A stretch of 32,177 nt of DNA from Bacteroidetes bacterium MED-G20. GTDB lineage: Bacteria; Bacteroidota; Bacteroidia; Flavobacteriales_D; Parvicellaceae. The notes beneath the pieces are model-generated. The model was given only the letters and a program-made list of their open reading frames with translations. It was not told where the DNA came from and did not search any database. This document shows, piece by piece, positions 6,370 to 31,066 of the stretch. Positions within the stretch are counted from its first letter, which is position 1. Every line of letters starts with the position of its first letter. The translations under genes and the position numbers were made by a program. The stretch covers positions 1-32,177 of the forward strand of contig NTKH01000009.1 in NCBI GenBank assembly GCA_002457645.1, read 5' to 3'.

Positions 6370-8184
6370 TTATTTTTTTATAAAATGAAACATTTGATTT
6401 TTAAAAATGGGGTTTTTTATTTCTATTAAATAAACTCCTGAATTAAGTGACGAAATATTGATATTTTCAGAATTACCATTTTTTATCTCAATGTTTTTAC
6501 TTAGAACTAATTTTCCTGTTAGGTTGAAGAAATTTATTTGGGTTGGATTATTTATTTGAAAAATAGAGTTTAAAGTAATGTTGTCATAAGAAGGATTTGG
6601 AAAAATTTGAATTTGATAATTAATATCATTTTCAATACCAACAAAATTCACTGTAATTGTATCTGAACCTGAACAGTTATTTGCATCTAGCACATCAACA
6701 TAAAAATTTCCATTATTAATTGGATTAATTGAAGAAGTTGTTTCCCCAGTATTCCATAGATAGGTATAGGGACTAATCCCCCCTGAAACATTAACAGTTA
6801 GCTGTGGACTAGATGAAATAATTTGAGGGATGGGATGATCATTAATAGTAAGGTCTAAAACTGCTACTGAGTCACAACCCAAATAGTTTAGAGTAATAAA
6901 TGAATGATTTCCTGATTGAGAGTATGTCATTCCATTCCAAACATAACTTCCACATTCAGAAACAGAACTTAAGGAAGATGATGAATTTAATATGGTTAGA
7001 TTTAAATTTCTTATACTGTCACAGGCAGGATAAAGAGAAAGTGTATCAAAATAATTTCCGGATGTAGTAATTATATTTCCATTTGAAAGAATTAGAGAAT
7101 CACACGCAGAAATGGTATCTAAAACTACTACATCACAGTTACAAGAATCAATTTCTGAAAGGCCAATGGCATTATTTAATCCACTAGAATCACCTATTGA
7201 AAGGTAATCAATAAATAATGGAGAAGACATATCTACATTTCCAAAATCAAAAAAAACTCTAAGTTTTGAAATTATGCTTTTATCTACATTATTTTCTGTA
7301 AAAGCAGCATCAGGAAAAACAAATGATAATTGAGATACAGAATTTAAATTTGAACTAGTTGAAACTGTTATTTTACCATTATTTCCATTTGTAACATTTC
7401 CAGTTGAATCCTCAAAATCTATTCTTATCGAGAAACTGCTACTGGACCTTTCACCAATAGTTATTTTTTCATATCCTGTTATATCCATTATGGTATCAAA
7501 TTCGTATGTTACATAGCCATATGCAGGAGCAGACGACAAAGAGTCACTAAAAACTTTTAGTTCTTGGCATGCTGTTTCAAAGAAATTAAACTTAGGAATA
7601 GTAGAAATAGTTAAGTTTCCCCAGTTAGAAACTGTATAATCGTTAAATTGATCTTCATATAAGTTTCCCATTGTCTGAGAACTGGTGTTGCTAACCACCA
7701 TGTTTTCCCAATAAATTGTATCACCACTCCCGACACCCCATGGGCCTCTAAGTCCAAATCTTGCTATGGTTCCTGAATAAGTTCCTGAAGCAGGTGTTGA
7801 ATTTAAATCTATTGTATAAGTAGAAAAACCAGTCATAGCAGTATCAACAGCAAATACGTAGTAACATGAAGCAGTATTAGTTCCTGGAGGATAAATATAA
7901 AGTCTTGTGTTACCATTTCCAGTTGTAGGATTTTTGACACTTATTGTAACTTGATTATAATCTGTAGCATTCAATCCAAGATTCGCTTGTAAATTACCAC
8001 TTCTCATTAGAGGGGTTGTGTTGAAAGCATTCATTGACATGGACCCAGGAAGCGCAGTAAGATTACAACCTCCTCCACTTATCCAACCCTGCTTTGAGTT
8101 TTGCCAATTATAGACAACAGGAGACTGTGCAATAGCTGACCCAATTAAAAAAATTAAAATAATACTGAATAATTTTTTCATCAT
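6370..8184 (-). CDS. T9SS-secreted multi-module protein with module shared with CDS at 1..1296
   Basis: 604 aa; signal peptide, NWQNSKQGWISGGGC... module, short Cys-Asp-Ser repeats (SACDSLILSNGN..., SECGSYVWNGMTYSQSG...), C-terminal IQIFPNPSYDNITLNS...GVYLIEIKN sorting domain. Confidence 0.8.
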   Translation of the reverse strand: MMKKLFSIILIFLIGSAIAQSPVVYNWQNSKQGWISGGGCNLTALPGSMSMNAFNTTPLMRSGNLQANLGLNATDYNQVTISVKNPTTGNGNTRLYIYPPGTNTASCYYVFAVDTAMTGFSTYTIDLNSTPASGTYSGTIARFGLRGPWGVGSGDTIYWENMVVSNTSSQTMGNLYEDQFNDYTVSNWGNLTISTIPKFNFFETACQELKVFSDSLSSAPAYGYVTYEFDTIMDITGYEKITIGERSSSSFSIRIDFEDSTGNVTNGNNGKITVSTSSNLNSVSQLSFVFPDAAFTENNVDKSIISKLRVFFDFGNVDMSSPLFIDYLSIGDSSGLNNAIGLSEIDSCNCDVVVLDTISACDSLILSNGNIITTSGNYFDTLSLYPACDSIRNLNLTILNSSSSLSSVSECGSYVWNGMTYSQSGNHSFITLNYLGCDSVAVLDLTINDHPIPQIISSSPQLTVNVSGGISPYTYLWNTGETTSSINPINNGNFYVDVLDANNCSGSDTITVNFVGIENDINYQIQIFPNPSYDNITLNSIFQINNPTQINFFNLTGKLVLSKNIEIKNGNSENINISSLNSGVYLIEIKNPIFKNQMFHFIKK

Positions 8185-8185
8185 T

Positions 8186-9787
8186 TTAAGATTTTTTATT
8201 TTTCAATTTATTTGGTTCGTTGTAAGCTCTTTGAATTACAGTATCTGTCATCACTTTCATCTCTTCGATTGTGATATCATCTTTATACTCACGCTGAAGA
8301 GACTTTAATTGTGATTTTAATTCTTTAATTAATTCTTCTGGAGCCTCATTATAAATATTATTCATTTCATTTGGATCTTTTTCTAAATCATATAACTCCC
8401 ACTCATCCATTGAATAATAAAAATGAATTAGCTTATATTTTGAAGTTTTAATTCCATAGTGAGGTTGGACCTTATGCCATAAAGGATATTCATAATAATG
8501 ATAATAAACTGCCTCTCTTCCAACATGATTTTCATCTACAAATGAAGGTTTAAAACTTTTTCCTTGCATTGAATTTGGGACTTCAAGCCCAGCGAAATCT
8601 AAGAGGGTTGGTCCAAAATCAATATTCATAATTAACTCTTTAGAAATGATATTGGAGTCAATAATTCCAGGACATTTAATTAGGAAAGGCATTTTAAATG
8701 ACTCTTCATACATCCATCTTTTATCAAACCAACCATGCTCACCTAAATAAAAACCCTGATCAGAAGTGTAGACAACTAAGGTGTTTTCCGCTAATCCATT
8801 TTCCTCTAAATAATCTAAAAGTCTACCAACAGCTCTATCTACACCCTTAACACATCTCAAATAATCTTTAATATATTTTTGGTATTTCCATTTTTTTAAA
8901 GCTTCACCATTTAAAGTGTCATTTGGAGACCAAAATTGACCTTTATCACCATATGCCAACCAACGCATAGAGTCTCTTCTAGAAAGTCCAGAAGGAGCTA
9001 TTAATTTCATGTCTCTTCTGTTGAGGTGGTTTTCTATTTCCATCATATTTTCACTTGCTGCTAATCTGCCAAAATAATTATCATTAAAAGTAGATGGTTC
9101 AGGAAAATCAAAATCAGAAAACAATTCATGATAAATAGAGTCAGGTCTCCAATCTCTATGTGGAGCCTTAAACTGGTACATCAACATAAAAGGTTTGGAA
9201 GTATCTCTACTTGAAAGCCAATCAATACAATCGTCTTCAATTACTTTGGTAGAATGTCTCTTTTTTTCAAGGATTGTATCCTTTCCATTTAAACAAAATT
9301 GTGGATGAAAATAGGTTCCTTGGCCTCCCCAATTAACTAACACTTTAGAGTAATCAAAACCTGTTGGAGTTGTTCCCAAATGCCATTTTCCTATGACAGC
9401 AGTTTCATAACCATTTTTTTGAAAGATTTTTGGAAAAGTAAGCTGAGAACCATCAAAATCACCGCCATCAACATTTTTATAAAAGCCATTTACATGAGAA
9501 AAATTACCTGTTAGGATAGAAGCTCTACTTGGTCCACATATAGAATTAGTACAATAGACAGCATCCATTAAAGCTCCACCAACTGCAATTCTATCGATAT
9601 TGGGAGTTGGAGCCAGTTCACTTATTTTGGAACCATACGCACTAATGGCTTGATAGGCGTGATCGTCAGCCATAATATAAACAACATTAAGCGGTTTTTT
9701 TTCTGGAGGATTTGTAGAGGTTTTATTTTCACTATTGCAAGCTGACAGAAATAGCATCGAAAGACTAAAAAAAATTATTTTTTTCAT
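8186..9787 (-). CDS. Type I (formylglycine) sulfatase, lipoprotein
   Basis: 533 aa; lipobox LFLSAC; NVVYIMADDHAYQAISAYGS, CTNSICGPSRASILTGNF (C-x-P-S-R), VVYTSDQGFYLGEHGWFDKRWMYEES. Confidence 0.92.
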   Translation of the reverse strand: MKKIIFFSLSMLFLSACNSENKTSTNPPEKKPLNVVYIMADDHAYQAISAYGSKISELAPTPNIDRIAVGGALMDAVYCTNSICGPSRASILTGNFSHVNGFYKNVDGGDFDGSQLTFPKIFQKNGYETAVIGKWHLGTTPTGFDYSKVLVNWGGQGTYFHPQFCLNGKDTILEKKRHSTKVIEDDCIDWLSSRDTSKPFMLMYQFKAPHRDWRPDSIYHELFSDFDFPEPSTFNDNYFGRLAASENMMEIENHLNRRDMKLIAPSGLSRRDSMRWLAYGDKGQFWSPNDTLNGEALKKWKYQKYIKDYLRCVKGVDRAVGRLLDYLEENGLAENTLVVYTSDQGFYLGEHGWFDKRWMYEESFKMPFLIKCPGIIDSNIISKELIMNIDFGPTLLDFAGLEVPNSMQGKSFKPSFVDENHVGREAVYYHYYEYPLWHKVQPHYGIKTSKYKLIHFYYSMDEWELYDLEKDPNEMNNIYNEAPEELIKELKSQLKSLQREYKDDITIEEMKVMTDTVIQRAYNEPNKLKNKKS

Positions 9788-10755
9788 AAAGAAGAATTAT
9801 AAGTTAAAATTAAATAATCTACGAAATATCCAAAATTTCCAAATGAATTACCATTTTGACTACATACAACGTCCAATCTAATAACATTTTCAACATTTAG
9901 ATTTCCATCAATTATAACATTACCAGCAGTTTGATCTACCGTAAAATTATCAAAATTAAAACTTTCCTTATTCCAAGATCCATTTGAATTCAATGAAAAT
10001 TTATAAGTCCATGCCTCGTCAATACCTTGGTCATAGCTTCCATCGCTATTTTCATCTTCGAACATTTTAATAACTACAGCACTTCCATTTAAATCAGATT
10101 TAAAAAATCCATTAAAATATATATTTGATTTGTCAGTTTCATTAATACTTCCAGATGGCAAAGATACACGTGTTGCTCCAAAATATGTGTTTGATCCTTC
10201 GCCGCTAATGTCTAAAAAGTTGTTTCCATGAATTGCTACCGATGGATTACTTAAAACTTGTAATTGAGTAGTGTTTTGAGAATTAACTAAACCATATTCA
10301 CTTGGATCTTCATAACTAGTTAGCAAATAACCCAAATTTGAAAAATCTCTTTCTCCCAATATCAGAATAGAATCTGACAATGTAGTATCACTATTATCAA
10401 ATGAAAGAACTACATCACACCACTCATACTGTTTAAAAAATATATTATCAGAGTTTCCAGCCCAAAAAACATTTGATAAATTGTTCCCAACGTCACTAAT
10501 ACTAAAATTTGCCCCAGAGTTTCTACCAACTATGTCAATATTAAAGTTTGCATTAATGGAAAACTCGGCAAAAAATCTTACCGTATCATTTAAAGAAAAA
10601 TCTACACCAACAGGTTTATCAGAGCTAAAAGACTCTAGAATTTCAAGCTCACCAAATTGACCTTCAATTGGTGGGCCGATATAATCATCTTTTTCACAAG
10701 AAATTATTAGATGAAAAAGAAAAATTAAAATTATATAATTGAAATATTTTACCAT
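9784..10755 (-). CDS. Module lipoprotein C1 (putative surface glycan-binding-type lipoprotein)
   Basis: 323 aa; lipobox FHLIISC followed by EKDD; homologous to 22594..23631 (EGQFGELEILESF / NEIFGNFQLNSSF; WAGNSDNIFFKQYEWCDVVLSF / WNGNTSQVPFFKKELCAVELSF). C-terminal jelly-roll-like ending (FVDYLILTYN). Confidence 0.75.
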   Translation of the reverse strand: MVKYFNYIILIFLFHLIISCEKDDYIGPPIEGQFGELEILESFSSDKPVGVDFSLNDTVRFFAEFSINANFNIDIVGRNSGANFSISDVGNNLSNVFWAGNSDNIFFKQYEWCDVVLSFDNSDTTLSDSILILGERDFSNLGYLLTSYEDPSEYGLVNSQNTTQLQVLSNPSVAIHGNNFLDISGEGSNTYFGATRVSLPSGSINETDKSNIYFNGFFKSDLNGSAVVIKMFEDENSDGSYDQGIDEAWTYKFSLNSNGSWNKESFNFDNFTVDQTAGNVIIDGNLNVENVIRLDVVCSQNGNSFGNFGYFVDYLILTYNSSL

Positions 10756-12450
10756 TTAAAATTTAATTTGGACTAAAACAAAAAACTGATTAATACTAAA
10801 TGAGTTGTTAAATAATTTATCAGTAAAATTAAGAATTTGATAATTAATCAAAACACTAGATTTTTTATTAAAATCATAGCCAATTCCAAGAGAACTAATC
10901 TCATGAACTAAATCGCATTCAAAAGCATTATATGATTCTATTGTAAAATCATTATTTCTTATGGGAAGATAATCTAATCCATTGGAAAATAATCTTTTAT
11001 AAGATGATAAAATTGATAAATTTTTTAAAACTTCAAATTCTAAACCTAAATCAAATATATTACAATTTAAATTTATATTTTGAACATTCATGTATTCTGG
11101 ATGTTCTCTTTTTGAAGTTGAATTTGAATACCCACCACTAAACAAAAATTGATTATCAAAGCTTAATAATTTATCTATAAATAAATTAAAAGCAATTGAA
11201 TAATTCATATAGTTTCTTTTGGTATTGATTCCCTCTCCAACTAAATCATTTAAAAAAGAAAAATGAGCATTTACATTAATAATTTTAAGTGAATCTGAAA
11301 AAGTTAAATCCGAAGTGATTCCTCTCCTATTAGGAGTGGCTAAACCATAAGGATCAATAACTCCAAAAATTGGATTAAAAGTATCCAAGCCATAATCAAT
11401 TTTTCTATTGTAAAATGAGTTGGATCTTATAAAATCTACATCATAGATAATATCTGCTATTGAAATATCTCTGCTAATCGTATTGTTATTGGATTGAGGA
11501 AACAAAAATGGAGCCATAGAGTAATTGATTCTTTTGGACTGACTTCCAGGAGAGGAAAAGTCTTCACTAACCGATCTAAAACTTGATGAAAAAGATAAAT
11601 TATTAGAAAAATTTATATTAAATCCAATATTAAAAAATTCTCCATTAATCCATTTACTATCAAAATTATTAAGTGTATTGGTTAACCTTGAAAAACCAAA
11701 TTCAGAATGAAGTTTTAATTTTTTAAAATTCAAATCAAAGTTGGAAGAAATAACATGATTATTTAAGTTGGTATCATAGTTAATTCCTTTATAATTAGAG
11801 AATAAATCAATGTGATTTAAACCAAAAGAAAATCTATTGGACTTATATTTAATTTCTGTTCCATAAAGGAATACATCGGGAGTTGAAATCTCGTTAGATG
11901 CCATCTCTCTGGTACCAAAAGTTTTATACTTTACACTATCTCTTTTAAAAATAGGTTTGAAGCCATTTATGACCAATCCTTGTCTTCTCCAAAAATTACC
12001 ATTATTAAAATTTTCATATCGTTGGATCTCTCGAAAATTATTGGCTAATCTATTTTCATTTACTATTCCTTCTTCTTGAAAATTCCATAGAGTAAATGGA
12101 GTCATTTTAAGATCAATATCACCAATTTCAAATGAAATGTTTTTATTAAGATTTCCATAAATTAAAATTCTTCTTAAATTCAAGTAAGAAGAAGAGGTGT
12201 CAAATACTTCAAGACTATTTCCTAGCCTTAACTCACTGTAAAAATTAATAAATTTATTTAATTCTCCTTTGACTGCTAAATCAAATACTAAATTAAAATC
12301 TTGGTTAACATCGTTATTTACAGTGTCATTTTGATCTAAAAAAGAATTATCTGCCAATGCTCTAGACAAACCTCCAATTTCAAATTTTGGAAACTGTGCA
12401 AATATGCTCAGAGTAGAAAAAAGAATTATATACGTTAAAAGGATTCTCAT
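10756..12450 (-). CDS. Module protein B1, putative outer-membrane beta-barrel protein
   Basis: Signal peptide MRILLTYIILFSTLSIFAQ, alternating amphipathic strands throughout, C-terminal aromatic strand FFVLVQIKF; paralogous to 23628..25376. ORF track starts at TTG 12453; ATG at 12450 overlaps the A1 stop (TGATG). Confidence 0.75.
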   Translation of the reverse strand: MRILLTYIILFSTLSIFAQFPKFEIGGLSRALADNSFLDQNDTVNNDVNQDFNLVFDLAVKGELNKFINFYSELRLGNSLEVFDTSSSYLNLRRILIYGNLNKNISFEIGDIDLKMTPFTLWNFQEEGIVNENRLANNFREIQRYENFNNGNFWRRQGLVINGFKPIFKRDSVKYKTFGTREMASNEISTPDVFLYGTEIKYKSNRFSFGLNHIDLFSNYKGINYDTNLNNHVISSNFDLNFKKLKLHSEFGFSRLTNTLNNFDSKWINGEFFNIGFNINFSNNLSFSSSFRSVSEDFSSPGSQSKRINYSMAPFLFPQSNNNTISRDISIADIIYDVDFIRSNSFYNRKIDYGLDTFNPIFGVIDPYGLATPNRRGITSDLTFSDSLKIINVNAHFSFLNDLVGEGINTKRNYMNYSIAFNLFIDKLLSFDNQFLFSGGYSNSTSKREHPEYMNVQNINLNCNIFDLGLEFEVLKNLSILSSYKRLFSNGLDYLPIRNNDFTIESYNAFECDLVHEISSLGIGYDFNKKSSVLINYQILNFTDKLFNNSFSINQFFVLVQIKF

Positions 12451-14198
12451 CAAAAAAATATTTTTAGTTCTGCAGTAATTTCATAACCTTGATAATGATT
12501 ATTGGAAAAATTCTTTTCATTGTAGTTTACATTTTTAAATCTAAAATAAAAACATGACTTAGAGCTTATACTATAATCAAAACCTAAGCCCAAGACATTT
12601 CCAAATCCATTTCTTGGTAAATATTCATTATTCTCAGAAAGTACATCTCCTAAGCCAGAAAATTCGTTTCCCTTTATTAGTTCCGTGCCATAATAGCCAA
12701 TTAAAGAAAGTTTTTTATTGATATTAAAATACAAATCAAATTCGTGGAAATGGTTCCGTAGAATAGCCTTATTTGAAAAAATGGGAATTGGAGACAAAAA
12801 GGATTGTAAAGAATGAAACTCACCAAGATAAAAAATGAAAAAATCTTTATTAAAAATTTTCGCACGATATTTTAAATTTAACAGAAAAACATTAAATGAT
12901 TTACTGATAGTACTATTTAAAGAATCATCAATATAAACATTTTCATAATATCCTCGAAAGAAAGTAGTCAAGTTCCCTTGAGGACCAGTAGATGATTGAA
13001 ATCTTTCTATTCTTGATAAATAAAGGCCATTGACTTTGTGAAAAAAAGATACCAAATTAGTATCGTTCTGAATCTCTCTGGATAAACCATTTCCGACATT
13101 TACTTTTAAATTTCCAATATTAAATTCAGAATTTAAATTCAATCCAAAACGATTATTTGATTTAATATGCATGGGATTCATCACCCCTCCGTAGGGCCTA
13201 GCTCCATCTGGTATTCCCTCTCCATTAAAGGAAGTTGTTTGAGAGCTAAAAGATGGAACAGAGCCATTGATAAGAGAGGAGTGAATATTTACAAAGTTTG
13301 GACTGATGTAATATCCTTCTATGAATATTGGAAAGCTAATTAATCTTGGACTAGGTTTTATGGTTATTTGACTTGCTATACCAGATTCTGATAATCCATT
13401 TGACTCAAAAGAATACTTACTATGAGCTAGTTCACTGCTAATTTTCCATTCATTTATATTTCCTTCATAGGTGAAATAAATAATATCGTTTTTAAATTTA
13501 TTTCCGTTAATTAATGCGTCAATGCCACTTGAATTAAGAAAACCCCCATTAAAATAATTGAGTCTTTGCTTCTTCCCTATTCTAAACGTGGTAATATTAT
13601 CAATGGGTGAAATATTGAATGGTGTTTTACCATAAAAAATTTCTAAATCATATAATTTTGGCAAATCAGTTGCTTTAAAATGAAAACCTGAAACTTGTCT
13701 TTTACCCCAGTCAGCCGCTCTTATATAGTTTGATTTGTCCAGATAATTATTAAACTGGACATTTACTGGCCAAACAGCAGTCCAAGCATTTCTATCAAAT
13801 AAAGAATTTCTAACTTGCCTAGCAGAACTTAAAGAAAAATCACTAAAACGAATAAAATTGATTCCTCCGGTTGTAAGTTTTAGATTACCAAATCTTGTTT
13901 TTTTCCCCATTTCTAAGGAAACCCCTTTTCTATTTAACTTTAAAAAATTTTTATCAGAAATATTTCCTGTAAAAGGCTCAAATAAATACAACTGAGTTTT
14001 AATATATCCTGAACTTTTCGATTTAAAAAGTAGATCTAAATTAAGTGTAGGAGAATTAAATTCATCATCGACCCTGAACACAATTGGATTTATAGAATCA
14101 CCAAATAAATCAGGAACCTTTCTATTGTAACCCATAAATCTATAATACCCTTTTATGGAAAAATCAACTTTTTTTGACTTCATTAAAAATGGAGGCAA
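12450..14198 (-). CDS. Module protein A1, putative outer-membrane beta-barrel protein (true start probably upstream of 14198)
   Basis: 582 aa from TTG 14198; C-terminal YEITAELKIFF strand; paralogous to 25373..27310. In-frame codons upstream to about 14267 encode a signal-peptide-like KFSIYIFYFLLFSVSSIGQ. Confidence 0.75.
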   Translation of the reverse strand: MPPFLMKSKKVDFSIKGYYRFMGYNRKVPDLFGDSINPIVFRVDDEFNSPTLNLDLLFKSKSSGYIKTQLYLFEPFTGNISDKNFLKLNRKGVSLEMGKKTRFGNLKLTTGGINFIRFSDFSLSSARQVRNSLFDRNAWTAVWPVNVQFNNYLDKSNYIRAADWGKRQVSGFHFKATDLPKLYDLEIFYGKTPFNISPIDNITTFRIGKKQRLNYFNGGFLNSSGIDALINGNKFKNDIIYFTYEGNINEWKISSELAHSKYSFESNGLSESGIASQITIKPSPRLISFPIFIEGYYISPNFVNIHSSLINGSVPSFSSQTTSFNGEGIPDGARPYGGVMNPMHIKSNNRFGLNLNSEFNIGNLKVNVGNGLSREIQNDTNLVSFFHKVNGLYLSRIERFQSSTGPQGNLTTFFRGYYENVYIDDSLNSTISKSFNVFLLNLKYRAKIFNKDFFIFYLGEFHSLQSFLSPIPIFSNKAILRNHFHEFDLYFNINKKLSLIGYYGTELIKGNEFSGLGDVLSENNEYLPRNGFGNVLGLGFDYSISSKSCFYFRFKNVNYNEKNFSNNHYQGYEITAELKIFF

Positions 14199-14343
14199 AT
14201 TATAATTCTGTCCAATTGATGAGACACTAAATAGTAGAAAATAAAATATGTAAATGCTAAACTTCAGAGATGAATTTATTTATATTTCAATTTAAAAGTA
14301 ATAAAAAGATTGCTTGTATGTATATTAGTGTAAAAAAAACACA

Positions 14344-15939
14344 ATGTTATTAATATTGGTAAGTTGTAAAAGAAATATAATTTTAACATTATTATTAATT
14401 TCCTTTTTTAATAATTTTTCACAAAACAAACCGAACATAATATGGTTGGTATGTGAAGATCAATCACTATTTTTTTCTGCTTACGGGGATAGTAGCGCAC
14501 AAACTCCAAATATAAATGAACTTGCTTTAAACGGAACTGTGTATGATAATTTCTATACTGTTTCACCTGTTTGTTCTCCTAGCAGAAGCAGCATTGTAAC
14601 AGGAATGTATCCGACAACCATTGGAACTCAACACATGAGAGCCTACAAAAAAAATAAGGGTTCGATAAATAGTAAAACTAATTTACCAATTTACAGTGCT
14701 GTTCCTAAAAGAAAAGTTCAATTTTTTACAGAAATTTTAAGAGCAAATGGATACTATTGCTCCAATAATTCCAAAGAAGACTACAACATGGAAATGTCAC
14801 CTCTTGCTTGGGATGAAAGCAATAAAAATGCTCACTGGAGAAAAAGAGCTAAAAACCAACCTTTTTTCTCGGTTTTTAATTTCAACATCACCCATGAATC
14901 TAGAATCTGGAAAAACCATGAAAAACATTCTGAAGAGGATATTAACAAAATAATTCTTCCACCATTTTTCCCTAAAAACCATACGATAAAGAACGATTTT
15001 GTAACCAATTATAAAAATATTGAAAAATTGGATGAACAAGTAGGAGAAATAATTGAACAACTAAAAGAAGATGGATTATATGATAAAACTATAATTTTCT
15101 TTTATTCAGATCATGGAGGACCATTTCCAAGGTACAAAAGATCTATTTATGATTCTGGTTTGAAATGCCCGCTAATTATAAAATGGACTGAACCTAAAAT
15201 TAAACCTAGAAATGATCAAATGATTAGTTTTATTGATTTAGCTCCTACTATACTAGAATTAACAAAATCACAGACAATTCATAAGATGGAAGGTGTTTCT
15301 TTTTACAATCAGAATAATAGAGACTATATTTTTGCTGCCACTGACAGGTTTGATGAATTTACTGACAAAAGAAGATGTGTTAGAAATAATGAATTTAAAC
15401 TGATTATTAACTGGGACACTAAATCTTCGGCAATGAAACCCGTTTCATACAGAAAAAATATGAAAACGATGAGAATTTTAGATTCACTTAATGATTTGAA
15501 AAAAAATACTAATTCAATGGAAAATTGGTACAAAAATACCAAACCAAAATATGAACTTTATGATATTGTTAATGACCCTTATGAGCTTAACAACTTATAT
15601 AGCAATAAAGATTATGATAATGTTTTTAATGAACTAAAGAAAAAACTAAATGATTGGATAGATGACTCTGATTATGGAAATATAACTGAACCAAAAATGA
15701 TAGAAGAAATGTGGCCAAGTGGAGAAAAACCTGATCTAAAAGATCCTAAAATTATAAAAACAGAAAGGGGTTTTAAAATAATTTCCAACAATGAAAATTC
15801 TTCACTGGGATGGAGGGATAGCCCAAATGAAAATTGGCAAGTTTACCTCATAGAAGAAATAATATATCCTAAAAATAATTTTGAAATTATAGAATTTAGT
15901 CCAGGTTATGGATCCAAAAAGAGTTTATTTAAAATCTAA
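14344..15939 (+). CDS. Type I (formylglycine) sulfatase, exported
   Basis: 531 aa; NKPNIIWLVCEDQSLFFSAYGD, VSPVCSPSRSSIVTGMYPTTIGTQHMR (C-x-P-S-R), FFYSDHGGPFPRYK. Confidence 0.92.
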   Translation: MLLILVSCKRNIILTLLLISFFNNFSQNKPNIIWLVCEDQSLFFSAYGDSSAQTPNINELALNGTVYDNFYTVSPVCSPSRSSIVTGMYPTTIGTQHMRAYKKNKGSINSKTNLPIYSAVPKRKVQFFTEILRANGYYCSNNSKEDYNMEMSPLAWDESNKNAHWRKRAKNQPFFSVFNFNITHESRIWKNHEKHSEEDINKIILPPFFPKNHTIKNDFVTNYKNIEKLDEQVGEIIEQLKEDGLYDKTIIFFYSDHGGPFPRYKRSIYDSGLKCPLIIKWTEPKIKPRNDQMISFIDLAPTILELTKSQTIHKMEGVSFYNQNNRDYIFAATDRFDEFTDKRRCVRNNEFKLIINWDTKSSAMKPVSYRKNMKTMRILDSLNDLKKNTNSMENWYKNTKPKYELYDIVNDPYELNNLYSNKDYDNVFNELKKKLNDWIDDSDYGNITEPKMIEEMWPSGEKPDLKDPKIIKTERGFKIISNNENSSLGWRDSPNENWQVYLIEEIIYPKNNFEIIEFSPGYGSKKSLFKI

Positions 15940-18252: not shown

Positions 18253-20078
18253 TATTTTTTGATTTTTATTACTTTAACCTGAGATGAGTAATTAGACTTA
18301 TATAATTTTAAAATATAAATGCCTTTTTTTAAGGATTTTGTATTGATTATATTTCCAGAAGTTTCGAGGACTTTTTTGCCATTAACATCATATATGATAA
18401 TATTATCAAATTGAATATTTGGAATAAAGGAAATAGATTCATCAAAAGGATTTGGGTAAACTTTAATTTCTAAGTCATTAAAATTTTTAACTGAAGTAAG
18501 ATCATTTGAATTAGCAATAAAATTTACAGAGTATGGTTTAATATTAAATTTATAATTGCTATTTACAGGTCTGTAGAATGCTGGAACATTATTAATATCA
18601 GGTCCACCTTCTAGATTAACAGTAGTGAGATCATTGACATATATTTTTTTATCTGTTTCATCTGTTGCATTCATTTCATACCAATAAAAATTATCTTTTG
18701 TAAAACTAGATGTTGCGTTAAATTCTATAGTTTTATTAGACTGAGAAGTGTTGATGACAATCATTCCAATTTCTCCACTTGAAAAAGTTGAAACATAACA
18801 ATTAATGTCTGGATCGTTAGAGTAAGAGAATACTAACTTATCCCCTAAAAACTTATTTAAATAGTAATAAACATAATAAACAGGACGTGGTGTATTATTT
18901 TGAACAACAGTACTATTTCTAGCTGTCATTCCATGATCGCCTCCATGAGAGTCTAAACCATTTTGGAAACTCCAAAGCAAAGACATACCAATATTATTTT
19001 TTATTTGCTCACAAAGAACCTGAGAAATAAATATCGCATTGGCCATAGAAATTTCTCTCTCTCCAGTTTTTGAATTAAACTCAGTCATTGCAATTGGAAA
19101 ATATCCTGAAGGTTTATTGGTATAAGACGTAACCATATTGTTCACATTACTTACATTTTGTTGTACTTCAGAAATAGAATTTAACATTTCTTGATAAGTA
19201 ACGTTATTTGGATTCGGTTTTCTCCTAAAATAATCATGTATAATTAGAAAATCGGCAGTATTTTGAACCTTTTGAAGAACATCTTTAGACCAATCATTAT
19301 AAACACCATCATGAGGAAATAAAACTGCACCAATTTTTATCGAAGGGTCAGCAGCTTTCATGGAATCAACAAATACATTAAATATGTCGCCATACTTAGT
19401 CCCATTTATGGTATCTCCATTTACAATATGACCTGCCTGCCAAGGACCATAATTCTCATTACCCACTTCCCAATATTTGATATTAGCTCCTAAAGTCTGA
19501 TTCATATGTCTTACAAAATTGGCAGCATATGCAGCAGCAGTCTGAATTGGATTTGCAGAGGTTCCATATCGTGCATAGGAAGCATTTACTGCTATAATAC
19601 CATTGCCATTTACAGAATCTAAAATTTTCACAAAATCATCAGGACTTATTCTCCAACCAGAACCGTCAATGAGATCATTAATAGTAATTTGAGAATCATT
19701 TAATATGGAGGAAGGTATATTACCATCCCAAAAAAATTGATTAGAACCATTTCCACCAGGGTACCTGAATGTGAAATTATTTAATCCTTTTATATTTTCC
19801 ATAAAATCTGCTTGATTTAAAACTGATTCACCAAGAAAATGAGTTAGATTGGTTCCAAAATGAGATGGCAGAATATCGCCTAAAATATTTGAAGTATTAA
19901 AATTAATCGTAACATTTGAGCTAGTAGTTGGATCATTTTGTAATAAACTACCTTCAGGGAAATTAAATAGCCTTGGTTCCCAATCCTCATAAAATGAATT
20001 TAACTGAGAATTAAAAATCAAAAAAGAAACATTAGATAGAATTAAAAAAACAGTTTTTATTATAAAATTTTTAGACAT
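18252..20078 (-). CDS. Clan GH-A glycoside hydrolase, GH51-like, with T9SS sorting domain
   Basis: 608 aa; FTFRYPGGNGSNQFFWD, YWEVGNENYGPWQAGH, IAMTEFNSK; C-terminal IKVYPNPFDESISFIP...GIYILKLYKSNYSSQVKVIKIKK. Confidence 0.8.
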   Translation of the reverse strand: MSKNFIIKTVFLILSNVSFLIFNSQLNSFYEDWEPRLFNFPEGSLLQNDPTTSSNVTINFNTSNILGDILPSHFGTNLTHFLGESVLNQADFMENIKGLNNFTFRYPGGNGSNQFFWDGNIPSSILNDSQITINDLIDGSGWRISPDDFVKILDSVNGNGIIAVNASYARYGTSANPIQTAAAYAANFVRHMNQTLGANIKYWEVGNENYGPWQAGHIVNGDTINGTKYGDIFNVFVDSMKAADPSIKIGAVLFPHDGVYNDWSKDVLQKVQNTADFLIIHDYFRRKPNPNNVTYQEMLNSISEVQQNVSNVNNMVTSYTNKPSGYFPIAMTEFNSKTGEREISMANAIFISQVLCEQIKNNIGMSLLWSFQNGLDSHGGDHGMTARNSTVVQNNTPRPVYYVYYYLNKFLGDKLVFSYSNDPDINCYVSTFSSGEIGMIVINTSQSNKTIEFNATSSFTKDNFYWYEMNATDETDKKIYVNDLTTVNLEGGPDINNVPAFYRPVNSNYKFNIKPYSVNFIANSNDLTSVKNFNDLEIKVYPNPFDESISFIPNIQFDNIIIYDVNGKKVLETSGNIINTKSLKKGIYILKLYKSNYSSQVKVIKIKK

Positions 20079-20092
20079 TTTATGGTATAGAT

Positions 20093-21367
20093 TTATAATT
20101 GTTCTACTTTAAAAGGGATGTTTGCTACACTTGTTTGATTAATTTCATTTCTTACAAAAACAAAAATTCTATAAAAACCTTTTTTACTAGGTACATTAAA
20201 TATTATGTTATTTTCTGATTGTTTTATAATATCAAAATCTATTTCATCTGGTGACTCCTGATAGTCCCCACCCCCTTTATTAGAAAAAGTTTCTGGATAT
20301 AATTGAAAATCAAATATCAAACTATCATTATCATATTTATTGTAAATATATTCTAATGACACCTTTTCTCTATTTTTAAAAACATGATTTTTTTTCCAAT
20401 TATCTCCGTTCAATGTGATTTCCATGATACTTGGAGCTCTTGGCTTAGGCCATAGGCCACTCCAACAGTATTGCATAACATCTACTGCTTCAGTAGGATG
20501 TCCATTACTTAAATACATACCGTGCCATGTTGATGTTGATTCTTGTTTTTGTCCCCACAAAAAGCAATAAGAACCCAAACACAGTTCTTTATCTTTTTGA
20601 ATGATTCTTTGATATCTTCTTAGACGTTGGTTGGCTTTAAATCCGTTGGTTGGCTCAATTTTGGCTCCCCAAGAATTTACTTTTGCTTCAAATGGTCCGT
20701 TAACTCCCCATTCAGTGACAATGTAGGGTTTATCCCAGCCATACCTTCTCACATTCAAAGGGGCGTTCTCTATTGCTCCATAAACGTTAATTCCTAATAT
20801 GTCAATACTGGGACAATACTTTTTAATCATAAAAACTTTTGATGGATCTAATCCTGCAATAACAGTTGCTGTAGGATGATTGGGATCTACCTTTTTAATG
20901 AATTTTGCAATTTCTTCAATAGTTTCCCATACTTTAAAATTGGAATATTGCAAATCAACTTCATTACCAATTCCCCAAAGAATAACCGATGGATGATCTT
21001 TCAAACGTATGATTTCTTTTTTTATCAGTTCAATTTGACTCCTTACATTGTACTCATCATTATAATTAAATCCATTTCTTTCTTGGGCAACCCAAATTCC
21101 AAGACATACACTCAAGTTGTATTTGTAGGCAGAATCTAATAATTCACTTTTATTAGTGCTCCATATTCTAATAGAGTTAGCACCACTCTCCACCACTTTT
21201 TTAAAATTACTTTTTGCACCTGCTCCTTTAATGTAATAAGGCTCATCATTTTTAATTAATTGAAATCCATTGGATGTTTTATTAATAGAAACTTTGGCAG
21301 CTTGTGAAAAACTAATAGCTGGAAAAATAAATAGAGCAATAAAAAATAAACTAATTATACTTTTCAT
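20093..21367 (-). CDS. Clan GH-A glycoside hydrolase (GH2-like TIM-barrel only), exported
   Basis: 424 aa; signal peptide ending SFSQA; GFQLIKNDEPYYIKGAGA, HPSVILWGIGNEVD (acid/base), KPYIVTEWGVNGPFE (nucleophile). Confidence 0.75.
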   Translation of the reverse strand: MKSIISLFFIALFIFPAISFSQAAKVSINKTSNGFQLIKNDEPYYIKGAGAKSNFKKVVESGANSIRIWSTNKSELLDSAYKYNLSVCLGIWVAQERNGFNYNDEYNVRSQIELIKKEIIRLKDHPSVILWGIGNEVDLQYSNFKVWETIEEIAKFIKKVDPNHPTATVIAGLDPSKVFMIKKYCPSIDILGINVYGAIENAPLNVRRYGWDKPYIVTEWGVNGPFEAKVNSWGAKIEPTNGFKANQRLRRYQRIIQKDKELCLGSYCFLWGQKQESTSTWHGMYLSNGHPTEAVDVMQYCWSGLWPKPRAPSIMEITLNGDNWKKNHVFKNREKVSLEYIYNKYDNDSLIFDFQLYPETFSNKGGGDYQESPDEIDFDIIKQSENNIIFNVPSKKGFYRIFVFVRNEINQTSVANIPFKVEQL

Positions 21368-22593
21368 GACTTAATCCATTTTTTTGGGTTTTGTGGATTT
21401 CCTCTAAACTCAATTAATTTAAAATCTCCGATTTCAAACTCGCCACTTTCTAAAATTTTAAACCTTAACTCTTTCATTGAGGACCAATCTATTTTTTCGT
21501 GATTAACAAAGGATTTTAAAGGAATATAGTATTCATAAATTTGATCGTTTGTTACATAAATATTATTTTCTTTAATGATTTTAGAAATTCTTCTAGGCTT
21601 CCCTTTGTATGAACTCATGAAAATCTGAATTTTTGGAGCTTTATATGCTTTAACTTTAAAATACAATGCAGAGGTTGAATATATTTTAGAGATATCAGCG
21701 AATTGCCATTTGTGAAAAGGAAAACCAAATAAATTCCAATTTTTATTTTCATTTGTTATATCATAATTGACTAAAAGAGATACAGATACATTAAGCTCTG
21801 GCAATAGATTTTCAAAATCTGAGTCAGAAATAGAATCTTTAAATTTAGAATTAGTAATAAATTTAAAATTATCAGAGTATTTATTGTTTACACCCCACCA
21901 ATATTTTTTTTCATTACCAAGGATTACTGGAAAAGAATGAAATTCTTTATCAATTAAATCAGAATCAATTGAGTAAGGATGATGATGGGGTACAATTTTC
22001 ATATCATCAACATGAAAGTTTCCTTTATTTTGTAATTGTATTCTTAACTCTTTGATATTTGAAATATTAACTCCTTTTTCTTTATACTTAAAGGTAGAAA
22101 GAGGAATTGTAATTTTTCTCCAATTTTCATCTACTATTCCATCTTCAAAACCTAAATAACTCATTTTAGAAAAACATTGTTTTTCACTGTAATCAACCAA
22201 TGCAAATAACATAGGAACCTTAAAAAACTCTCCTGAATCACTTCGAATTCTAAATTGAATAGCACTGTTATCAATGATTGGAGTTAAATTTTTTGACTTG
22301 AAGTTTCCCCATTTAAAACCAAAACCCAACCATTTACAGTCCTCAGTTTTAGACCATATTAAATGTAGGTGATCTTTACCGACATAATTATTAGTGGTAT
22401 CAAAATAAATTTCTTTGCAAGAATTATTTTTACCCCAAATACCAGTAGCATTACTTTCAGAGAAAATATCTTTAAATTCAAAAGCCTCGTATGGATCAAT
22501 ATTTTTTTCTTCTTTATCGTAAATACTCAATGTATTTAATGAATCGCAAGAAGCGAAAAAGAAAAAAAATATAAAATATTTAAAGAATTTCAT
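21364..22593 (-). CDS. Lipoprotein with two tandem carbohydrate-binding-type beta-sandwich domains
   Basis: 409 aa; FFFFFASC lipobox; internal repeat ITIPLSTFK...ISNIKELRIQLQNKGNFHVDDMKIV / YYIPLKSFV...WSSMKELRFKILESGEFEIGDFKLI. Confidence 0.65.
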   Translation of the reverse strand: MKFFKYFIFFFFFASCDSLNTLSIYDKEEKNIDPYEAFEFKDIFSESNATGIWGKNNSCKEIYFDTTNNYVGKDHLHLIWSKTEDCKWLGFGFKWGNFKSKNLTPIIDNSAIQFRIRSDSGEFFKVPMLFALVDYSEKQCFSKMSYLGFEDGIVDENWRKITIPLSTFKYKEKGVNISNIKELRIQLQNKGNFHVDDMKIVPHHHPYSIDSDLIDKEFHSFPVILGNEKKYWWGVNNKYSDNFKFITNSKFKDSISDSDFENLLPELNVSVSLLVNYDITNENKNWNLFGFPFHKWQFADISKIYSTSALYFKVKAYKAPKIQIFMSSYKGKPRRISKIIKENNIYVTNDQIYEYYIPLKSFVNHEKIDWSSMKELRFKILESGEFEIGDFKLIEFRGNPQNPKKWIKS

Positions 22594-23631
22594 TTATTGA
22601 CTTAATAAATCTGATCCTTGAGTTAAAATTAAAAAATCAACATCTGTTCTCACATCAATTCCCATATTTTCTGGACAATTTGCATTGGCACCAGGGCAAG
22701 ATTGACATTGGATCTTAATTGCTGTTATATTTTTTGGCTCTCTTAAATTATTTCCACCAGAAGATTTTACTTCAAACTGATCATAGCTTAAAGAAATCAT
22801 CTTCCAACCATACCAATCAACAGGCCTTATTTGATATTTATATACCTCCATTGTATCTTGAAAGACGTCAGAAGCATTATTGGATAAATCATCATTAAAA
22901 GGATAAGTAGATTCTGAGACTAAAATATTAATAAATTGATCAGATGCTGTTTCTCCATTAATTCCCGATAATACACCTAGATTTATATAAAAGTCAGTGG
23001 CTGGAGTATTTACTGATGCTAAATCTAAAGGAATATCCAAACTACCTAAAAACCATTCATTCCAGCCCATTCTTCCTCCCATTTTAAAATAATTATTTCC
23101 CTCCAGAGGGTCATCATTAGATATATCGAAAGTCATATTCATAGAAAATTGATGAAAAACAATGGCTTCCTGAGGAATTCCATTTTCAAAATCTGCAACA
23201 ACTATTCCATCATAAACTTTAGTTTCTAATATATTTATTGTATCTCTTAATGTGTCAACTTCATTTAAAAAAGATAATTCTACAGCACATAATTCTTTTT
23301 TAAAAAATGGGACCTGAGAGGTATTCCCATTCCAATTAATCTGATTTGAATCAATCAAATTTGAAAAACCCGAAATTTCTTTTAAACTTCCTGATTCTAA
23401 ACCCAAAATTGAAATTTTCCATTCTATACTTTTATTAAAATCACAATGAAATTTTACCAATTCATTACTATTGGAAAAATCAGGTGAGTTATTACTGATA
23501 ATAAAAGAACTATTAAGTTGAAAATTTCCAAAAATTTCATTTAATAATGGACCTTCAACCTCGTCTTTTGAACAACCGAAAGAAATTATTAAAAATATAA
23601 CTGATAATTTGTAAAAAGTTTTTGACATCAT
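22594..23631 (-). CDS. Module lipoprotein C2 (putative surface glycan-binding-type lipoprotein)
   Basis: 345 aa; lipobox LIISFGC followed by SKDE; paralogue of C1 at 9784..10755; jelly-roll-like C-terminal segment ending DVDFLILTQ. Confidence 0.75.
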   Translation of the reverse strand: MMSKTFYKLSVIFLIISFGCSKDEVEGPLLNEIFGNFQLNSSFIISNNSPDFSNSNELVKFHCDFNKSIEWKISILGLESGSLKEISGFSNLIDSNQINWNGNTSQVPFFKKELCAVELSFLNEVDTLRDTINILETKVYDGIVVADFENGIPQEAIVFHQFSMNMTFDISNDDPLEGNNYFKMGGRMGWNEWFLGSLDIPLDLASVNTPATDFYINLGVLSGINGETASDQFINILVSESTYPFNDDLSNNASDVFQDTMEVYKYQIRPVDWYGWKMISLSYDQFEVKSSGGNNLREPKNITAIKIQCQSCPGANANCPENMGIDVRTDVDFLILTQGSDLLSQ

Positions 23632-25376
23632 AATTTAATTGAAAAAATAAATAAAAATCTTTGGAAATTTAAATCAGGGTAATTTGAATTGTTGAAATTT
23701 GAGTTCCACAAGTTATACTGAAGATTTATGTAAACGTTTTCTCTGTATTTATATTTAATTCCATAACAGTATAAATTATCAACCCGAATAATATTAAGAG
23801 ATTGGAAAGTGAAAATTTCACCATATTCATTTCTTTTATTTATATACTCATTACCTTTAGATTCAAATCTTTTTAAACTCAATTGTAAAAACAGCTTACT
23901 TAGAATTTCCTTTTCGATCAATAAATTAAAGTGTTGAGAATTTAAATTAACTCTTTCTATGCTATCTCCTTCTCTAGAAGTAATTTGATTCATTGTAGAA
24001 AATGATAAGTCAAATTCTTTTGTGTGATTAAAAATTTCTTTTAAATTAATATCACTTGACTGTAAAATGGTGAAAAAGTTTCTTTTTTGAGTGGTGCCCT
24101 GTCCAATTACTTCATTGAAATAAGATGTTTTAAAATTAATATTTAAGATTTTATTTTTACTATTATACTTACCGTCTAAAAATATTCCTTGTCTATTAGG
24201 AGTAGCATCTCCATAAGGTAAAGCATTTGAAAAAATAGGATCAAAACTCATAAGTGTTCCGGAAATATTCTGATTGTAAATATTGGGGTCTGTAACAATA
24301 TCAAAAACAGAAATTGGTCTAACTAGATAGTCATTTGAATAAAGTGAATAGATAGAACCAACATTGGTCTCATTCATTTCAATTCTCCTTGTTTGTGCAC
24401 CAGAGCTTCTAAAATTAGGGTCTACGTATCTATATCCAAGATTTAAGGAAAATGTAGAGTCTATTTTAAAATATGAACTTGAGAATTCGGCAAACATTCC
24501 CTTATTTAGTTCTGATGTAGAATCATCTACCGATTTATAGGACCAATTTCGTTCAGAAAATCCTGCTTGAAGTTTGTGATTTATAATTGAGTTTTCCGAT
24601 TTATTATTATAATTTATTCCCATTTGATAAACTGGATTTCTAATGGCTCTTTCAACAGTTCCTGTAGCAGGTAATTCTTTTAGTAAAACATAGTTGAGCT
24701 CAGCTGTAAAAGATTTATTTAATTTAGAGACCATTGAACCTCCTGAAATAAGCATATCGCTTATAGATGTATTCAAACCGCTATTTATTTGACTTGATCC
24801 TCTTGGACGGGTAGTAAATAAATCAAATTCTAGGGTTCTTATAAACCTATCAAATTTATAAGAAAAATTAGTTTGGATGCCTTGTAATCTCCATCGATTT
24901 TCGAAATAGAAATTTTCATAATCCACAATTTCTTTATAAGAACTATTGTAGTTATTCTCAAAGAAGTTTAATTCTTCGTCGTAATTATAAAGAGTAAATT
25001 TATTTTGCTTTAAAAATAAATCACCCACAGAAAACTTTACTTTATTTTTAATGATTCCACTAGCTCTTAATTGTCTAATGTCTATTTGAGTTCCAGAACC
25101 AAAAAAACTCCCAAATTCATTTTTTATCCTAACCTGTCCAAAAATTTCAATTGTTTCAAAAGGGTTGATATGGGTATTTAAATCAATTAAATTATATCCA
25201 CTTGAAATATTTGATGCTGAAATGGTGTCCTCTTCATTAATTTGGGCATCACTTGAAAAGAAGGACCTTCCTAGACCATCTATCCAAATTTTATCACTTT
25301 TTTGAGAAAAATATAGATTGGGTAAAACTATATAAAGAACTAGTAATAATAAAGATCTATATTTTTTCATCATCAA
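23628..25376 (-). CDS. Module protein B2, putative outer-membrane beta-barrel protein
   Basis: 582 aa; signal peptide ending NLYFSQ; paralogue of B1 (VGDLFLKQNKFTLYNYDEE / IGDIDLKMTPFTLWNFQEE; PYGDATPNRQGI / PYGLATPNRRGI). ATG at 25373 overlaps the A2 stop; 4-nt overlap with C2. Confidence 0.75.
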   Translation of the reverse strand: MMMKKYRSLLLLVLYIVLPNLYFSQKSDKIWIDGLGRSFFSSDAQINEEDTISASNISSGYNLIDLNTHINPFETIEIFGQVRIKNEFGSFFGSGTQIDIRQLRASGIIKNKVKFSVGDLFLKQNKFTLYNYDEELNFFENNYNSSYKEIVDYENFYFENRWRLQGIQTNFSYKFDRFIRTLEFDLFTTRPRGSSQINSGLNTSISDMLISGGSMVSKLNKSFTAELNYVLLKELPATGTVERAIRNPVYQMGINYNNKSENSIINHKLQAGFSERNWSYKSVDDSTSELNKGMFAEFSSSYFKIDSTFSLNLGYRYVDPNFRSSGAQTRRIEMNETNVGSIYSLYSNDYLVRPISVFDIVTDPNIYNQNISGTLMSFDPIFSNALPYGDATPNRQGIFLDGKYNSKNKILNINFKTSYFNEVIGQGTTQKRNFFTILQSSDINLKEIFNHTKEFDLSFSTMNQITSREGDSIERVNLNSQHFNLLIEKEILSKLFLQLSLKRFESKGNEYINKRNEYGEIFTFQSLNIIRVDNLYCYGIKYKYRENVYINLQYNLWNSNFNNSNYPDLNFQRFLFIFSIKL

Positions 25377-27310
25377 AATAATATTTTAAGTTCTAACATT
25401 GTCTCACTTCCTTTTAAATTATTTAAAACAAAATTAGGATCATGATAACTATATAAATTGTGTCTAAAAAAAATCATTGCGTCTTTCCCGATTTTATAAT
25501 CCAATCCCATTCCAATAAGTCTGTTTCGTTGGTTTCTAGCAAAATTAACTATCGAATTAGTAGGATTTAATCGGTTTAAAATCATATTTATAGGAGAACC
25601 AGAAGAATCAGTATTATCACCAAGATCGGTAATATGATTCCCAATTATTCTTTCCATTCCAAAATTTAAAATTAGAGAAGCATTGTTACTAACCTCCAAA
25701 TTAAAATCAATTTGGTTAGAGATTTGACTAATAAGAACATCTAAATTGTATTTTGGAAAATAATGTAAGCTCCTACTACAAGAATTAAATCTTGACAAGA
25801 AAAATATATAGAACTTTTTAGAACCTAAATTTCCCGAGTACTTTGCTTGAAATTCAAAATTTGCAAAATACTTCTTAAAATTTGCAAGACCATTTATGTT
25901 TGTATCGCTAATAGAAACATTTTCAAATATATTTCTATAGGTGGAGTTGAGTACATTATAAGGACCCCAATCACGAGCAAAAAGATACAATCTTGAAAGA
26001 GTTTGTGCATTTACATTGTATCTGTAAGAAATACTTGATATAGATGTATCAATTTCTGATGATATACCAATTCCAGCATTTATTTTTAATTTCCCGAAAG
26101 AATGTTGAGTATTTACAGAAATTCCTTGTCTATTATTTGTGTGAATACCTAAACCAACCATTGGACTATTAAATTGTGGTCTTATAGTAGTCGCTCTGTT
26201 ATTGGAACCAGTGTTTGGAAAAATTTCTAGAACCGAAGTATTTAAAAAATTTCCAGTTAAATTGACAAATTCTGAACTTATTCTATATGCTTGAATATCA
26301 ATAGGATATTTAGCTTTTTTTGATGAACTTATATTTAAAATTAAAGCTTCTCCGTTATTAAAATTATTTTCTGGAGAATAATAATTTCCTAAACCAGCTT
26401 CTAAATTAATAGAAAATAAATTCCATTTTTTTGAAAACTCTAAGGTATTAATTGAATAACCTCGGAATTCATTATTAACAGTATCAATTAAATTAGTTGA
26501 GTTTAAATAATTGTAAGAAAAATTAAAATTATTTTTAAATTTTTTACTCACTCTAAAACATCCAGTGTAATTATTTGATAAACTATCTAAAATTGAACGA
26601 TTAAAAGGAGTTTTTCCGATTACTCCCTTTAAAGAAAAACCTTTGGGTAAATTTTGACCATTTATAAAGATTCCTTGAAAAGCTCTGTTTCCATACCTTA
26701 CTCCTTCATCAATTAAGCCATCATTGTAATAATTTTCATATCTTAAATGGGGAGTGCTTGTCAATCTTGTTTGAGGCCTTCTGTGATAGATACTTTCCCT
26801 GTTAAAAGATCGATTTCCCCAAACAGTTAACCTGCTTTGTCTGTACCAATTTACTCCACCAGAACTTACATTAAATTTCCCAAAACTTGTTGTGAAAGAA
26901 GATCTTAAATTTAAACCAAGTTCTAATGTTAATTGATTATTTACATTTTCTGGTCCTTTGTAAGTACTATTAAGCATAAAATCAGCACCAAACGAAATTT
27001 TATCTTTTGTTAAACCTTTTAATTTTAATAATAACATTGGTTCTCTGAAATTATCTCCTGACAGTAGAACCAAAGTTTTTCCACTGTTATTTGGAAATAC
27101 TTCAGTTTGATTTCTTACAAAACCCAAAAATCTGTAAGAGCCAGCAAAAGATATTGAACTTGAATTTGATTTTATATTTTTAATATTACTAGTGAAAATT
27201 TGATTTAATGACTCATTTTCTTGTCCATATATCTTGCAAGTTGAAATTGTAAATAATGTAAGGGAAAGCGTAATGAAATACTTACTAATGAATATATTAA
27301 AGTCTTTCAT
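25373..27310 (-). CDS. Module protein A2, putative outer-membrane beta-barrel protein
   Basis: 645 aa; N-terminal export signal ending CKIYGQ; paralogue of A1 (SYRFLGFVRN / YYRFMGYNRK; IGKTPFN / YGKTPFN; final SETMLELKILF / YEITAELKIFF). Confidence 0.75.
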   Translation of the reverse strand: MKDFNIFISKYFITLSLTLFTISTCKIYGQENESLNQIFTSNIKNIKSNSSSISFAGSYRFLGFVRNQTEVFPNNSGKTLVLLSGDNFREPMLLLKLKGLTKDKISFGADFMLNSTYKGPENVNNQLTLELGLNLRSSFTTSFGKFNVSSGGVNWYRQSRLTVWGNRSFNRESIYHRRPQTRLTSTPHLRYENYYNDGLIDEGVRYGNRAFQGIFINGQNLPKGFSLKGVIGKTPFNRSILDSLSNNYTGCFRVSKKFKNNFNFSYNYLNSTNLIDTVNNEFRGYSINTLEFSKKWNLFSINLEAGLGNYYSPENNFNNGEALILNISSSKKAKYPIDIQAYRISSEFVNLTGNFLNTSVLEIFPNTGSNNRATTIRPQFNSPMVGLGIHTNNRQGISVNTQHSFGKLKINAGIGISSEIDTSISSISYRYNVNAQTLSRLYLFARDWGPYNVLNSTYRNIFENVSISDTNINGLANFKKYFANFEFQAKYSGNLGSKKFYIFFLSRFNSCSRSLHYFPKYNLDVLISQISNQIDFNLEVSNNASLILNFGMERIIGNHITDLGDNTDSSGSPINMILNRLNPTNSIVNFARNQRNRLIGMGLDYKIGKDAMIFFRHNLYSYHDPNFVLNNLKGSETMLELKILF

Positions 27311-28187: not shown

Positions 28188-28219
28188 TTTGAAAATGGTG
28201 ATGCTACTAAAAAATTACC

Positions 28220-29119: not shown

Positions 29120-29152
29120 TTAAACAGAAAGTAATCTGTAATTTTCAAAATG

Positions 29153-29160
29153 TACATTTG
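29153..29160 (+). promoter_or_regulatory. Candidate -7 element TAcaTTTG just upstream of photolyase-like gene
   Basis: Exact TAnnTTTG match ending 4 nt before the GTG start at 29165; overlaps a TGTACA hexamer at 29151-29156. Confidence 0.4.
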
Positions 29161-29164
29161 AGAA

Positions 29165-31015: not shown

Positions 31016-31054
31016 TTTTGTTTAATTATTTTATAAATTAGTTAAACAATTTAG

Positions 31055-31062: not shown

Positions 31063-31066
31063 CATC

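Follow-up and report, generated by a model that had tools for sequence, protein, structure and literature searches.

An "atypical PUL" (polysaccharide utilization locus) for cellulose, chu_1276-chu_1280, has been described in Cytophaga hutchinsonii (PMC12016534). Mutant phenotypes are published for its first two proteins: CHU_1277 takes part in the assimilation of cellooligosaccharides (PMC5553014), and CHU_1276 is reported to be involved in glucose uptake. When glucose is low, growth is affected by the loss of either CHU_1276 or CHU_1279 (PMC12016534). Apart from the C. hutchinsonii work, our literature search for PULs that do not depend on SusC/SusD found just one remark, about a laminarin PUL that lacks susCD. 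The other system to compare with is the beta-1,3-glucan PUL of Bacteroides (1,3GUL), which has SusC and SusD; the same paper describes the endo-beta-1,3-glucanase BuGH158, with the residues N136, E137, and E220, of which E137 and E220 are the catalytic pair (PMC7157763). Here, we analyze a contig of 32,177 nucleotides from Bacteroidetes bacterium MED-G20 (NTKH01000009.1; "the window" is this whole stretch). It carries two copies of a module of three genes, A, B, and C, each at the head of an operon with genes for sulfatases or glycosidases. Judging from their sequences, A, B, and C belong to the family of CHU_1276-CHU_1278. We also think it likely that A and B are a pair of porin-like barrels which, together with C (and, in copy 2, D) as surface glycan-binding lipoproteins, import oligosaccharides for a PUL without SusC/SusD.

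Profiles of A, B, and C that were built from Flavobacteriales only matched CHU_1276, CHU_1277, and CHU_1278 (E = 1.3e-111, 5.4e-147, and 7.4e-40, respectively). On the C. hutchinsonii chromosome, the genes for A, B, C, a 375 amino acid protein, and a glycoside hydrolase of family 9 (GH9) are consecutive, and A-B-C have the same order and strand as in the window. In the 375 amino acid protein, Y253, F256, and F343 are present, and its identity is 89% to the protein from one relative and 49% to those from others; the same residues and identities are given for CHU_1279 (PMC12016534). Because the profiles match three consecutive genes of this identified locus, we consider A, B, and C to be homologs of CHU_1276, CHU_1277, and CHU_1278. 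Two SusC genes of the C. hutchinsonii genome exceed the cut-off, in agreement with PMC12016534. (C. hutchinsonii was not among the best 80 matches of our contig profile scan; we reached the locus via the family of a Cytophagaceae match.) The initial annotation did not recognize A, B, or C as a named family. None of them has a match above the Pfam or NCBIfam cut-offs or a sequence family in PDB (A2 matches DUF6845 below the cut-off, with E = 0.0025 over 41 residues), but the family has been studied in C. hutchinsonii.

The two loci resemble each other beyond the order of A, B, and C. In both, the fourth gene encodes a bimodular glycan-binding surface protein (in the window, D of copy 2), glycosidases follow, and SusC and SusD are missing. 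D and CHU_1279 are alike in position, size, and a make-up that resembles carbohydrate-binding modules (CBMs), but their sequences are only remotely similar. C. hutchinsonii has a GH9 endoglucanase (CHU_1280) and acts on cellulose, while the window has GH158, GH51-like, and GH3 enzymes and sulfatases. Also, the window has two modules in one island, and copy 1 has no D. Since the fifth gene of copy 2 encodes GH158 instead of GH9, the window's locus is a variant of the module rather than the cellulose PUL itself. The genes of the two modules, and the two genes that extend copy 2, are:

25373..27310, minus strand: A2, predicted outer-membrane beta-barrel of the CHU_1276 family, 645 amino acids, with a signal peptide (open reading frame, or ORF; structural model; profile match to CHU_1276)
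23628..25376, minus strand: B2, predicted outer-membrane beta-barrel of the CHU_1277 family, 582 amino acids (ORF; structural model; profile match to CHU_1277)
22594..23631, minus strand: C2, lipoprotein (Cys20) of the CHU_1278 family, 345 amino acids (conserved residues; lipobox; profile match to CHU_1278)
21364..22593, minus strand: D, putative lipoprotein that binds glycans, at the place of CHU_1279; its matches are CBM30/CBM11-like and SGBP-B-like (Pfam; PDB; hhalign)
20093..21367, minus strand: E, GH158 (endo-beta-1,3-glucanase family; profile match to PDB entry 9oro; catalytic residues)
12450..14267, minus strand: A1, predicted outer-membrane barrel of the CHU_1276 family, 605 amino acids from a probable CTG start (homology to A2)
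10756..12453, minus strand: B1, predicted outer-membrane barrel of the CHU_1277 family, 565 amino acids (homology to B2)
9784..10755, minus strand: C1, lipoprotein of the CHU_1278 family, 323 amino acids (homology to C2; alignment)

As initially annotated, A1-B1-C1 and A2-B2-C2 are collinear, on the same strand, tightly coupled, and homologous. We reproduced the coordinates and lengths of these six ORFs from the sequence. A1 and A2 are 29% identical (598 columns, E = 1e-52), B1 and B2 are 29% identical (557 columns, E = 1e-46), and C1 and C2 are 28% identical (353 columns, E = 2e-21; all by BLASTP). In copy 2, A2 and B2 overlap by 4 bases (25373-25376), as do B2 and C2 (23628-23631), and C2 and D abut (22594/22593). 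In copy 1, A1 and B1 overlap by 4 bases (12450-12453), B1 and C1 abut (10756/10755), and C1 and the sulfatase overlap by 4 bases (9784-9787). The length of 582 amino acids that was first given for A1 corresponds to an ORF that does exist, from the TTG at 14198, but this form has no signal peptide. Upstream of that TTG the frame stays open, with no ATG or GTG start at the signal peptide. The probable start, judging from the sequence, is the CTG at 14267, which gives a protein of 605 amino acids with a signal peptide, the same length as the copy in related species. (We suspected a frameshift because of the missing ATG, and dropped this idea once the frame was read. The sister copy of A1 in locus L068 starts with TTG.)

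The two copies are homologous, but they did not arise by a recent tandem duplication. In a tree of B, copy 1 and its relatives (window_B1 with G005, G007, G095, and G127) form a fully supported clade, as do copy 2 and nine others (with window_B2), and each clade includes members of the families f1 and f9. Thus, either the split predates these families or modules moved between them. A sister relation of the two copy types was not rejected (AU test, p = 0.07).

To see how the module is arranged elsewhere, we pooled 139 distinct loci with B over all sources. A is directly upstream of B in 137 of the 139, and C is directly downstream of B in 130 of the 136 loci whose sequence extends that far (L160 and L162 have no C directly after B). 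Just 3 of the 139 loci have SusC within 9 kb. The enzymes nearby include GH158 (81 loci), GH3 (63), GH16 (55), sulfatases (13), and GH9 (8), so the recurrence of A-B-C near carbohydrate-active enzymes (CAZymes) or sulfatases, which had been proposed as a check, was found, with enzyme contexts for many substrates. Among the 150 nearest genomes by kinship, A and B were each found in 58, and among the matches listed, A adjoins B wherever both are on one contig. Across 41 stretches (the window and 40 from the nearest genomes), the order A-B-C-D recurs, with GH158 in 33 and GH3 in 24; these stretches also encode GH16 enzymes of the laminarinase type, SSF or MFS symporters, and regulators of the NrtR/AraR-type NUDIX or Reg_prop/Y_Y_Y/GerE kinds. 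In other words, A-B-C is conserved, as initially described, but the conserved unit exceeds three genes: copy 2 adds D and usually the GH158 gene E.

The carriers include Cryomorpha ignava, Saprospiraceae, Cytophagaceae, metagenome-assembled genomes (MAGs) of rumen Bacteroidales, and Rhodothermota such as Roseithermus sacchariphilus. The A profile matched 6 of 398 genomes in a phylum-wide draw, and the B profile matched 45 of 397 in a draw of near-complete genomes by class; because the draws and the profiles differ, there is no single figure for prevalence. Of 35 genomes with the module, 7 have no SusC over the TIGR04056 cut-off (G029, G084, G104, G111, G124, G127, and G137). In two Cytophagaceae genomes (G830 and G845), the B profile matches as many as 8 times per genome, which hints that the module has expanded to many substrates, like SusCD. 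In Roseithermus sacchariphilus (L230), the GH158 ORF is 813 amino acids with two domain matches, and the B and C-like ORFs are 917 amino acids each; these could be fusions or over-long ORF calls. Three MAG contigs with the module (L166, L168, and L214) are titled Bifidobacterium breve, Chryseobacterium gleum, and Chitinophaga pinensis, and the first title, at least, looks like a misnamed bin.

AlphaFold models of A2 and B2 are confident and bear out the initial annotation of A and B as barrels. B2 (pLDDT 90.5, pTM 0.88) is predicted to have 22 strands and A2 (pLDDT 85.4, pTM 0.84) about 24, as counted from the DSSP string. Both barrels are predicted to be in the outer membrane and to have no plug: they begin at residue 30 of B, right after the signal peptide, and at residue 52 of A, so there is no room for one. 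In the model of B, short turns follow the even strands and long loops follow the odd strands, so the long loops would be extracellular, provided that the N terminus is periplasmic. One of these loops (319-394) has 18 columns with at least 80% identity, and it ends in PYGxATPN, followed by RxG (the conserved motif PYGxATPNRxG). Both families have an N-R-x-G motif that follows a long loop, with the NNRxG of A aligned on the PNRxG of B. More broadly, the families of A and B are homologous (hhalign probability 98.8, E = 5e-17, 493 columns; 65 A sequences against 66 B sequences). In the same comparison with 18 SusC sequences, A and B had probabilities of 1.4 and 0.8, which is no detectable kinship. 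We conclude that A and B probably descend from a common ancestor and that, judged by sequence, they are not SusC. As for the lipoproteins, Cys20 and Gly27-Pro28 of C2 are invariant in the family alignment, and most homologs of C have a lipobox. D matches CBM30 (6e-12) and SGBP_B_XBD (0.001) in Pfam and CBM30/CBM11 proteins in PDB. Neither C nor D has a match to the SusD/RagB domain in Pfam, up to E = 1.

Both copies continue into genes for sulfatases or glycosidases, as was first noted. Past C1, the operon of copy 1 has a sulfatase and two proteins that are exported by the type IX secretion system (T9SS), one with three CBM4_9 domains; past C2, the operon of copy 2 has D, E, a GH51-like enzyme, and GH3. 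The other genes of the island are:

18252..20078, minus strand: GH51-like glycoside hydrolase with a T9SS sorting tail (phmmer; Por_Secre_tail)
15940..18252, minus strand: GH3 beta-glycosidase, the last gene of operon 2 (Pfam)
14344..15939, plus strand: sulfatase, divergent from A1 (Pfam)
8186..9787, minus strand: sulfatase that is probably a lipoprotein, right after C1 (Pfam)
6370..8184, minus strand: T9SS-exported protein with no recognized catalytic domain; homologs lie beside sister modules (Por_Secre_tail; cluster c16)
4669..6366, minus strand: three CBM4_9 domains and a T9SS tail; kept beside type-1 modules (Pfam; cluster c15)
3254..4672, plus strand: sulfatase (Pfam)
1524..3254, plus strand: second GH51-like glycoside hydrolase (cluster c9, the same as 18252-20078)

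The profile of E matches PDB entry 9oro, which is labelled GH158 (5.6e-128). E has N135-E136 and E219, and E136 and E219, which are invariant in its family, correspond to the catalytic E137 and E220 of BuGH158. The GH51-like enzyme at 18252..20078 matches GH51 arabinofuranosidases (2.7e-12 with phmmer). Both GH51-like enzymes are distant from the arabinofuranosidases with solved structures and have no Pfam match in the catalytic part; they are possibly a glycosidase family that is so far unassigned. The genes at 27531-31966 (YceI, histone-deacetylase-like, photolyase-like, flavin reductase, and ABC ATPase) have no evident role with glycans; they are syntenic in G001 (L069) and mark the edge of the island.

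Most of the module loci have enzymes for beta-1,3-glucan (GH158, GH16, and GH3), and others have genes for cellulose, xylan, starch-type glycans, pectin, or chitin and amino sugars, or for sulfatases. The non-glucan cases are one or a few loci each; single loci have GH10/GH43/GH67 (xylan), GH97 with GH13 (starch-type), pectate lyase, or GH18 or NagB/PIG-L. Sulfatases along with the formylglycine-generating enzyme are found in the window's own family and in a few other loci. Because the enzyme contexts vary, this transporter family appears to serve many substrates, as SusCD does. Given GH158, the GH51-like enzyme, and GH3 beside copy 2, and a sulfatase and the triple CBM4_9 protein beside copy 1, the window's two operons are probably for one or two polysaccharides that are sulfated and at least partly like beta-1,3-glucan, and the substrate is perhaps a sulfated glycan that GH158 can cleave. 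The sister loci share GH158, GH16, GH3, an SGBP-B-like protein, and a sensor-regulator with the Bacteroides 1,3GUL, which has SusC/SusD where these loci have A, B, and C; the window also differs from it in having sulfatases and no GH16 (PMC7157763). Along with the rarity of SusC near the module and the genomes that lack SusC, this parallel supports the initial suggestion of an alternative to SusC/SusD. Beside some GH158/GH16 loci (L080, L088, and L093) are proteins of 950-1270 amino acids with T9SS tails and arrays of CBM48/AMPK1_CBM-like domains (cluster c0). Such domains are known for alpha-glucans.

How would the module work? A and B, as related plug-less barrels, would act as a pair, and with the lipoproteins they would form the outer-membrane part of a PUL that works without SusC/SusD. 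C and D may hold the glycan at the cell surface while surface or secreted enzymes cut it, and the A/B barrels would let oligosaccharides into the periplasm. There, sulfatases and GH3 would complete the breakdown, and an inner-membrane symporter, whose gene is in many sister loci but not in the window, would take up the sugar. We infer that A, B, and C form a complex, that it works in the direction of uptake, and that it is independent of TonB. Like the SusC/SusD importers, the module puts a large outer-membrane barrel and a lipoprotein first in a CAZyme operon. It differs in having a second barrel, in the predicted lack of a plug, in showing no detectable kinship by sequence, and in lipoproteins that do not match SusD. 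It is quite improbable that A and B are divergent SusC-like TonB-dependent transporters in a variant SusC/SusD system. The 22 strands of B are the number in TonB receptors, the C. hutchinsonii authors noted structural matches of CHU_1276 to TonB receptors (PMC12016534), and ZnuD and BtuB are among our Foldseek matches; against this, A and B have no match to the Plug domain or to TonB-linked barrels in Pfam. We rejected the SusC/SusD variant given the profile comparison and the plug-less models.

Import by a porin-like A/B pair is the best reading because the barrels are predicted to be plug-less and because many sister loci encode sugar symporters. Some results weigh against it. The matches of the A and B models to PDB with Foldseek mix porins, ushers, AlgE, maltoporin, and a few TonB receptors (TM 0.21-0.55), with no close solved relative, so the fold cannot single out uptake over export. 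D is only remotely similar to the CHU_1279 family (hhalign probability 84, E = 8e-6, 318 columns; copy 2), two SusC genes elsewhere in the window's own genome exceed the cut-off, and the experiments on the module that our literature search found are from C. hutchinsonii only. Also, the C. hutchinsonii mutants are reported to lose cell-associated beta-glucosidase activity (PMC5553014), which a display or scaffold role could explain. A and B might instead be a platform for export or display that carries or anchors secreted CAZymes, sulfatases, and CBM proteins at the surface, with uptake by other porins; pilus ushers and the alginate exporter AlgE are among the top Foldseek matches, and many neighboring proteins are T9SS cargo with sorting tails. 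We consider this unlikely, as T9SS cargo has an export route of its own, the roles published for CHU_1276 and CHU_1277 are in uptake and assimilation, and an uptake route needs inner-membrane sugar symporters, which many loci have. Regulators (NrtR/AraR-type NUDIX, Reg_prop/Y_Y_Y/GerE, or hybrid two-component) often adjoin the module, and it might only sense surface glycans and signal to them. However, the types of regulators vary while A-B-C is constant, and the loss of CHU_1276 or CHU_1279 affects growth, so sensing alone seems very improbable.

The C. hutchinsonii PUL was already known; the wider claim, of a general second import system for PULs, is likely. In its fullest form, this claim has homologous A and B barrels that work as a hetero-pair, without a plug or TonB, together with lipoproteins at the surface; in Bacteroidota and Rhodothermota, they would have diversified alongside SusC/SusD to serve beta-1,3-glucan, cellulose, xylan, starch, pectin, chitin, and sulfated glycans. 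We judge this full form to be about as likely as not. PULs are usually recognized in genomes by the SusC/SusD pair, so loci based on this module would be overlooked or taken for simple CAZyme clusters, and therefore the glycan-degrading capacity of Bacteroidota is likely undercounted. A module that seemed peculiar to a single group of cellulose specialists becomes a broad family with many apparent substrates, and this makes the mechanism of transport testable in easier systems, such as with soluble beta-1,3-glucan.

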